Positions 13,211-25,260 of a stretch of 34,273 nucleotides of DNA are shown here, piece by piece. The stretch comes from Paludibacter propionicigenes. GTDB lineage: Bacteria > Bacteroidota > Bacteroidia > Bacteroidales > JAFGXI01. The notes under the pieces are model-generated. The model did no database searches. It saw nothing but the letters and a program-made list of their open reading frames with translations, and was not told where the DNA came from. Within the stretch, counting starts at the first letter, position 1. Every line of letters starts with the position of its first letter. The translations under genes and the position numbers were made by a program. The stretch spans positions 1 through 34,273 of the forward strand of contig DYMG01000020.1 of assembly GCA_020721655.1 (NCBI GenBank), in the 5' to 3' direction.

Positions 13211-13240
13211 TAAAAAAGGCTCAATTTTGAGCCTTTTTTA
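13211..13240 (+). terminator. Rho-independent terminator after the FKBP pair
   Basis: AAAAGGCTCA and TGAGCCTTTT form a perfect stem around a 4-base loop (stem centre near 13225), with a T-run. Confidence 0.9.
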
Positions 13241-13300: not shown

Positions 13301-13308
13301 TACTTTTG
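13301..13308 (+). promoter_or_regulatory. -7 box for the PafA-like gene
   Basis: TACTTTTG fits TAnnTTTG and lies 24 bases before the ATG at 13333. Confidence 0.6.
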
Positions 13309-13332: not shown

Positions 13333-14988
13333 ATGAAAAACACAATTATATTAATTTCAATAATATTATTTATTAATAATAATAATGCCATAAGTCAGAA
13401 CAAAATACCATCAGAAAAACCAAAACTAATTATAGGAATAGTAATTGAACAAATGCGATATGACTACATAAACAGATTTTGGGAAAAATTTGAAAAAAAC
13501 GGATTTAAAAGATTAATAAACGAAGGCACATTTTGCAAAAATACAAACATAAATTATATGTTTACCCAAACAGCACCCGGTATAGCATCAATATATACAG
13601 GAACAACACCATCAATGCACGGAATAATTGCAAACGATTGGTACACATCATTAGGAAAAAAAGAAAAAAACGCAGTAGTTGATGCCAATTTTAAAGCAAT
13701 TGGAACAAATAATAAAAATGGGAACTTTAGCCCTGTAAACATCTTAACAACAACAATTAACGACGAATTAAAAATCTCAGACCGAAAATCAAAAGTATAT
13801 AGCGTATCTATTAGCGAACTATCATCAGTATTGGGTGGCGGACATTTAGCAAACGGCTCATTTTGGTGGGACGAAGAATCGGGAAAATGGATAAGCTCAA
13901 CATATTACTATAAAGACAGTTTGCCTAATTGGATAAACGAATTTAACAATAAACTATTTCACGAAACATATTTAGCAAAAGAATGGAACACACTTTTGCC
14001 AACAAACCAATATACCGAAAGTACTTTAGATTCAGCTAAATACGAATATGGAATAGGGAAAAACAGACAAACTTATTTCCCATACAATATTGCAGAAATG
14101 TCGAACATACTAAAAACCAACAAAAGCTACAGCTTACTTAAAGATATTCCTTTTGGAAATAATTTTACCAAAGACTTTGCAATAGCAACAATTGTAAATG
14201 AAAAATTAGGCAAAGATGAACATACAGACTTTATATCAATTTCGTTCTCTCCAACCCAAAATATTGGACAAAAATTTGGACCAAACTCTGTTGAAATAGA
14301 AGACACATACCTTAGAATAGACAAAGAACTATCACATTTTTTAACCTTTATAGACGAAAATATTGGCAAAGAAAATACACTTGTATTTTTAACATCAGAC
14401 CACGGAGTTGCCGAAATACCAAAATATTTAGACGAAATAAAAATACCATCGGGGAAATTTAATGCCAATTATTCAATGGCAATACTAAAAACATATCTAA
14501 ACGCAATTTATGGCGAAGGCGATTGGGTTTTAAAATATACCGACCAACAAATATATTTGAACACAAACTTAATTGAAGATTCTAGACTTTCTTTAAAAGA
14601 TATACAAGACAAAGTAGCTCTATTTATGCTTCAATTTGATGCCATAGCAAGTGCAATAACATCAACACAAATGGTACAATCTAACTTCACAGATGGAGTA
14701 TTCAAAAAAATGCAAAACTCTTTTAACCAAAAACAATCTGGCGATGTAATGATAAATTTAAAACCAGGATATATTGAAGATGTTAAATATGCAACATACT
14801 CAAACTCACCATACACTTACGACTCTCATATTCCACTTATTTGGTACGGTTGGAAAATAAATCGCCGAACAATTTATAGAGATATAAATATTACAGATAT
14901 AGCACCAACAATATCATCACTACTAAATATTTCATTTCCAAATGGATATACAGGTAAGCCAATTTTTGAACTATTGGAAAATAAATAA
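13333..14988 (+). CDS. PafA-like alkaline phosphatase homologue, probably inactive
   Basis: This is a secreted protein of 551 residues (signal 1-21) in the alkaline phosphatase superfamily, aligned throughout with PafA. Kept from PafA are the nucleophile Thr (T80 in QTAPG), the Asn of ANDW (N101) and the Zn2 ligands D356-H357 (TSDHG). Lost are the phosphate-binding Lys/Arg of KDR (S161-E162-L163) and all three Zn1 ligands. Asp and His of STDxxGH are Q309 and Q313, and His of THGSPY is S490. The Zn2 Asp of VDQMR is Glu39. Surrounding fold motifs (ASIYTGTTP, FGPNSVEIEDTYLRID, YDSHIP) are well kept. The frame is intact, so it is not simple decay. It may be a binding or regulatory pseudoenzyme, or a mono-metal enzyme. 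It has its own promoter and is followed by a dispersed repeat. Confidence 0.85.
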   Translation: MKNTIILISIILFINNNNAISQNKIPSEKPKLIIGIVIEQMRYDYINRFWEKFEKNGFKRLINEGTFCKNTNINYMFTQTAPGIASIYTGTTPSMHGIIANDWYTSLGKKEKNAVVDANFKAIGTNNKNGNFSPVNILTTTINDELKISDRKSKVYSVSISELSSVLGGGHLANGSFWWDEESGKWISSTYYYKDSLPNWINEFNNKLFHETYLAKEWNTLLPTNQYTESTLDSAKYEYGIGKNRQTYFPYNIAEMSNILKTNKSYSLLKDIPFGNNFTKDFAIATIVNEKLGKDEHTDFISISFSPTQNIGQKFGPNSVEIEDTYLRIDKELSHFLTFIDENIGKENTLVFLTSDHGVAEIPKYLDEIKIPSGKFNANYSMAILKTYLNAIYGEGDWVLKYTDQQIYLNTNLIEDSRLSLKDIQDKVALFMLQFDAIASAITSTQMVQSNFTDGVFKKMQNSFNQKQSGDVMINLKPGYIEDVKYATYSNSPYTYDSHIPLIWYGWKINRRTIYRDINITDIAPTISSLLNISFPNGYTGKPIFELLENK

Positions 14989-24795: not shown

Positions 24796-25260
24796 TTAAT
24801 TTATTTGTTTAACGCTAATTCCTATTTTAGTAATTCCTATTAAGGTGTCTTCTCGCATACCTTGAATTATTGTTGTTTTGTAAACTCCTGATAATGGAAA
24901 TATTATCGCTTTTTTGAATAAATATTTCCCGTAATAATTATCGCCTTTTTTACTTCCAACCCACTTGCCTTTATAATCTGCCATAAAAACATCAATGGTG
25001 TCGATAATAGTTTTTTTATCGGGCGATTCAATTTTTACAAATAAAAATAAATTGCTATACTTAAAGTTATCAGTGTTTTCTATGTCTATAAAAACATTGA
25101 ATATTTGCTTAGTGTCTTTTATTTTTAAATTAAAAACAGCACTATCTTTATTTGTCCAATAATTTTCGTTTATTTCCTTTATATCTTCAAAAACTACTGA
25201 ATTACAAGAATATATGCTTGCAATTGATAGTAATATTAGTGATAAAAATGTGCGTCTCAT
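24796..25260 (-). CDS. gldH: Gliding-motility lipoprotein GldH
   Basis: GldH is an outer-envelope lipoprotein first found as needed for gliding in Flavobacterium and present in many non-gliding relatives. The 154 residues have a lipobox ending IYSC (Cys19 lipidated). A beta-rich body includes FVKIESPDKKTIIDTIDVFMADYKGKW-type strands and ends at GVYKTTIIQGMREDTLIGI, all characteristic. It lies 3 bases after ricT and 4 before trmB. No other gld or T9SS genes are here, so motility cannot be inferred. Confidence 0.92.
   Translation of the reverse strand: MRRTFLSLILLSIASIYSCNSVVFEDIKEINENYWTNKDSAVFNLKIKDTKQIFNVFIDIENTDNFKYSNLFLFVKIESPDKKTIIDTIDVFMADYKGKWVGSKKGDNYYGKYLFKKAIIFPLSGVYKTTIIQGMREDTLIGITKIGISVKQIN

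Follow-up and report, generated by a model that had tools for sequence, protein, structure and literature searches.

A putative PafA-derived pseudophosphatase in Paludibacter propionicigenes and its degenerate relatives in the Bacteroidales

The locus and the active site of its product

The window analyzed here, a 34,273-nucleotide stretch of a Paludibacter propionicigenes contig, carries at positions 13333–14988 (+) a gene for a 551-aa protein that sequence, profile and PDB searches and a predicted structure identify as a probable PafA-derived pseudophosphatase. The frame is open throughout, as the first-pass annotation had reported, and it is the only family member in this genome, which has no active copy. 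Genes for CdaA, a DUF6796-like product and two FKBP isomerases lie upstream, as they also do in the congener, and guaB, PPIC, SurA-like and MoxR genes lie downstream. Elsewhere in the window, a GldH lipoprotein gene (24796–25260, −) adjoins a PSP1-domain gene. Between the FKBP gene and the pseudophosphatase gene there is a terminator-like hairpin, AAAAAAGGCTCAATTTTGAGCCTTTTTT (13212–13239, +), followed by TACTTTTG (13301–13308, +), a match to TAnnTTTG, the consensus of the Bacteroidota −7 element; no TTG was found at the usual −33 spacing upstream of it. Hairpin and −7 element suggest that the gene is probably monocistronic.

The product matches the Pfam family Phosphodiest (E 1e-35). Its N-terminus (13333–13395, +) reads as a signal-like segment, MKNTIILISIILFINNNNAISQ, with no lipobox Cys and a cleavage site that may lie near the junction of NAIS and Q, in keeping with the preserved signal peptide noted at first pass; PafA, too, carries a signal peptide. 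The Elizabethkingia/Flavobacterium PafA entries 5tj3 and 5too rank first in a PDB search and align end to end (phmmer E 6e-122), and a profile search against PafA returns an E-value of 8e-155. On the NCBIfam PafA model (NF042991) the protein scores 633.4 bits, just below the cut-off of 650. An AlphaFold model with 14 window-like relatives as input (mean pLDDT 79.5) matches 5tj3 with TM values of 0.81/0.86, and sequence and predicted structure together indicate full-length homology to PafA and the same fold. Model confidence falls below 50 at residues 76–79, by the nucleophile, and at residues 486–497, around the lost H486, a pattern that is weakly consistent with relaxed constraint.

The ten mapped active-site positions read E T N S L Q Q D H S in the window protein and D T N K R D H D H H in PafA, a match at four of ten. 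The nucleophile T79 is kept as T80 (13570–13572, +), N100 as N101 (13633–13635, +), and the Zn2 ligands D352-H353 as D356-H357 (14398–14403, +). The Zn2 ligand D38 is replaced by E39 (13447–13449, +), the phosphate clamp K162-D-R164 by S161-E-L163 (13813–13821, +), and the Zn1 ligands D305 and H309 by Q309 and Q313 (14257–14271, +), while the remaining Zn1 ligand, H486, aligns with S490 (14800–14802, +). The two-metal site (D38, D305, H309, D352, H353, H486) hence retains D352 and H353 only, and N100 is the sole survivor among the phosphate-binding residues N100, K162 and R164. This catalytic map against PafA and its homologues, proposed as a check in the first-pass annotation, confirms the losses described there and places every listed residue where it had been placed; the retention of N101 had not been mentioned. 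There is no Asp or His in SISFSPTQNIGQKFGPNS, around residues 309–313, and no His in the loop ATYSNSPYTYD around residue 490, so that no register shift restores the Zn1 ligands. Nor are the losses a sequencing error, since the congener, an independent sequence, shows losses of the same kind. PhoK (SPAP, PDB 3q3q/5xwi), which belongs to the same superfamily and appears to share the fold of the predicted structure (TM about 0.72), differs in that none of its ten positions is changed (D T N K R D H D H H).

Extent and course of active-site loss

In a survey of Bacteroidales-type genomes, the family was found in 239 of 392, with 22 above the PafA cut-off. Among listed, higher-scoring matches, from which both samples were drawn, 39 of 40 members below the cut-off were degenerate, and 17 of 20 above it were canonical, the other three (L240, L242 and L243) being degenerate. 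These three exceed the cut-off despite their altered sites, and the NF042991 equivalog model can thus mislabel pseudoenzymes; the lowest-scoring members seen elsewhere, in a lineage where the gene adjoins secA, are the most degenerate. Half of a class-wide sample (200/396 genomes) scored above the cut-off, and the members inspected from other orders, all of them high-scoring, kept 10/10 catalytic residues. Closer to the window, the family is present in 37 of the genomes of 60 relatives and is nearly always degenerate. An active-site table built from 80 named loci on genome contigs and 30 high-scoring genomes of the class is bimodal, with 0–6 of ten residues kept in 79 non-redundant degenerate relatives, 9–10 in 25 canonical proteins, and nothing between. 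These distributions support the view that active-site loss is neither isolated nor special to the window gene but affects most of the order.

Different subclades have lost different catalytic residues. Within the window's own family, six members carry QxxxQ, ExxxQ, ExxxE, KxxxN, KxxxN and KxxxD as the Zn1 motif; SNS, with Ser at the H486 position, is common to all six, and YSNS is confined to the window protein and its congener. A clade sharing QxxxQ and YSNS, as envisaged at first pass, was not found, QxxxQ being absent even from the congener. None of the catalytic residues has been lost from all degenerate lineages, retention ranging from R164 (3/79, the lowest) to H353 (40/79, the highest), a pattern that points to piecemeal decay with no replacement set.

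In a tree computed without the catalytic columns, a single branch with support 81 separates the 79 degenerate from the 25 canonical rows. When PhoK is added, one canonical row, L071, moves among the degenerate rows and the root is unsupported, so that inactivation may have occurred in one or in several events. PhoK was rejected as a root on account of its long branch (3.0) and unsupported attachment. The L071 gene (7917–9587, +) itself combines a complete canonical site (10/10) with a sequence that otherwise resembles the degenerate group (FTQTG motif), and may represent an active intermediate. One Bacteroidales genome (G007) encodes both a canonical PafA and a degenerate relative (L060 and L061), and the grouping of its canonical copy with Elizabethkingia PafA suggests that the active copy was acquired later.

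Constraint on the fold and competing readings

The losses are concentrated at the active site. Of the 80 columns outside the catalytic set that active PafAs conserve, 69 are kept in the window protein, against 4/10 of the catalytic ones (Fisher p 0.003), and the 79 degenerate relatives retain 77% at such columns versus 27% at catalytic positions; none of 100,000 random 10-column sets showed retention as low as the catalytic set. Furthermore, of the 20 columns that canonical PafA conserves at ≥95% but the degenerate group has lost, most are catalytic or adjacent. The selective loss reported at first pass is upheld in this respect, and falls only as a peculiarity of the window gene. Comparison with the congener gives dN 0.195 and dS 1.06 (dN/dS about 0.18), close to the values for the adjacent FKBP gene (dN 0.174, dS 1.08), and places the gene under purifying selection. 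In a subdomain at residues 374–438 (14452–14646, +), positions F376, L384, Y388, G396, W398, Y402, L413, E415, F431 and Q434 vary among active PafAs but have become conserved in the degenerate group. Most of them carry hydrophobic or aromatic residues, and their conservation may reflect core packing rather than an interface.

We read the protein, with a probability of roughly 0.7, as a periplasmic pseudophosphatase, a PafA descendant that would be kept for binding and whose catalysis has most likely been lost. It would have arisen by vertical descent from PafA, shedding the phosphate clamp and the Zn1 site, and with them, most likely, the hydrolysis of phosphate esters; the gene would have been retained because the alkaline-phosphatase fold, including the newly constrained subdomain, binds something. 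A homologous fold that lacks the conserved catalytic motif and is maintained by selection is what characterizes pseudoenzymes at large, such as pseudokinases and pseudoproteases (PMC5106787, PMC10211241). Sequence comparison favors the pseudoenzyme advanced in the first-pass annotation, and broadens it to most of the order; a binding role, one of those attached to it there, would account for retention of the fold. Some residual activity is possible, given that the nucleophile, N101, D356 and H357 remain.

The alternative that survives best, though improbable, is a one-metal enzyme in which E39, T80, D356 and H357 would bind a single zinc and Thr80 would act as nucleophile on a phospholipid or lipoprotein substrate, after the manner of the phosphoethanolamine and phosphoglycerol transferases of the superfamily. 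The residual E-T-D-H pattern is that of the zinc ligands of LptA/EptA (E240, T280, D452, H453; PMC5153839), and three proteins among the six in the window's own family have it exactly. Yet orthologues do not preserve the four residues together: the congener carries Asn in place of D356, and elsewhere Ser stands at T80 or Asn at D356. Across 121 degenerate proteins, D/E-T/S-D-H is jointly retained in 18, against 16.3 expected under independent decay (p 0.34), and this lack of excess stands even though shared ancestry alone should inflate joint retention. EptA and LtaS carry an N-terminal membrane domain, whereas the window protein has one N-terminal hydrophobic segment only, followed directly by the PafA fold; its sequence is moreover remote from those of EptA/LptA and EptC, and its phosphate clamp is gone. 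With the four positions not co-retained beyond independence and Asn at 356 in the congener, one-metal catalysis is a minority option, and the novel one-metal chemistry suggested at first pass finds no positive support.

A subclade with the pattern ESDKxDHAHH, with some variation (L084, L086, L089, L090, L104, L106, L110, L113, L117, L118 and L133), keeps the Zn1 ligands, has lost D352, and carries Ser and Glu at T79 and D38, respectively. The Zn1 triad is co-retained in 19 cases against 1.6 expected, largely through shared descent, and by its residues this subclade appears to be a better one-metal candidate than the window protein.

A weakened but otherwise ordinary phosphatase or phosphodiesterase, with residual alkaline-phosphatase-type activity at a poorer site, is distinctly unlikely: the fold, T80, N101, D356 and H357 are kept and the model matches PafA, but the Zn1 ligands and the two clamp residues have all gone, and relatives have lost the nucleophile too (T79 is kept in 16/79). 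A decaying pseudogene on its way out, to which the lost catalytic residues might point, can be set aside as very improbable in view of intact frames in dozens of species, a dN/dS of about 0.18 and a well-kept non-catalytic core.

Genomic associations and implications

The gene neighborhoods of the putative pseudophosphatase differ between lineages. In the window, the neighbors relevant to the envelope are the FKBP and SurA-type isomerase genes. Other genomes present the order ychF, an M14 peptidase or CrcB gene, and the pseudophosphatase gene, followed by convergent genes for GGGPS, a phosphopantetheinyl-transferase-like protein, GldD and GldE; in others, the gene lies near GldJ-MurF instead. 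Some canonical pafA genes also adjoin CrcB-cluster genes, which suggests a shared ancestral locus. In a second lineage, spanning six other families, the relative lies directly between the genes for Lnb, a lipoprotein N-acyltransferase, and SecA, in the order Lnb, pseudophosphatase, SecA. One case among the Lnb matches listed in the order survey (L067, 9139–11916, −) is a single 926-aa frame without internal stops in which Lnb_N and the Lnb transmembrane domain are fused to a degenerate PafA domain; it comes from a draft genome and may have arisen through misassembly. When kinship is ignored, Lnb and the family are found together in the 392 genomes more often than expected by chance (both in 176, Lnb only in 28, the family only in 63, neither in 125). 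A search of the window genome, however, found Lnt instead of Lnb, and the link is therefore not directly transferable to the window protein. Among the 60 relatives (G000–G059), Lnt and Lnb are nearly complementary, with at least one in every genome and both in only five.

These settings tentatively place the family in envelope or lipoprotein biogenesis, where the protein might conceivably act as a periplasmic, non-catalytic partner; the variation of the neighborhoods between lineages and the apparently monocistronic window gene weigh against this. The more specific proposal of an undescribed non-catalytic component of Bacteroidales lipoprotein maturation or export, whose partners would be Lnb and Sec in one lineage but other envelope factors in that of the window, is doubtful. 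Two other associations were considered and rejected. Dependence on the T9SS could not be judged from presence or absence, SprA occurring in 59/60 relatives; the window genome encodes about 70 T9SS tail domains. For BAM involvement, a term search of two papers on Bacteroidota BAM structures found no mention of PafA or phosphatase.

A search of the open-licence literature found no described PafA-lineage pseudoenzyme family, and one under presumed locus tags of Bacteroides and Porphyromonas returned nothing relevant. In a survey of the whole phylum, 78.7% of Bacteroidetes were reported to carry pafA (PMC8115612). The follow-up to that survey, in the sections available, required key catalytic residues and retained 423 isolate ORFs, with the bank given as n = 468 (PMC8812569); such a filter would drop degenerate PafA-like proteins, and those sections describe none.

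An enzyme that is widespread, with its catalytic residues intact, among other orders of the Bacteroidota appears to have become an ex-enzyme through most of one order. The many partly decayed sites in living lineages make the family a good system for the study of active-site decay in a protein that stays needed. For annotation, the catalytic residues of Bacteroidales entries named PafA or alkaline phosphatase family protein should be inspected before these are taken for phosphatases. Lastly, the Lnb-SecA linkage offers a lead on lipoprotein biogenesis that can be put directly to the test.
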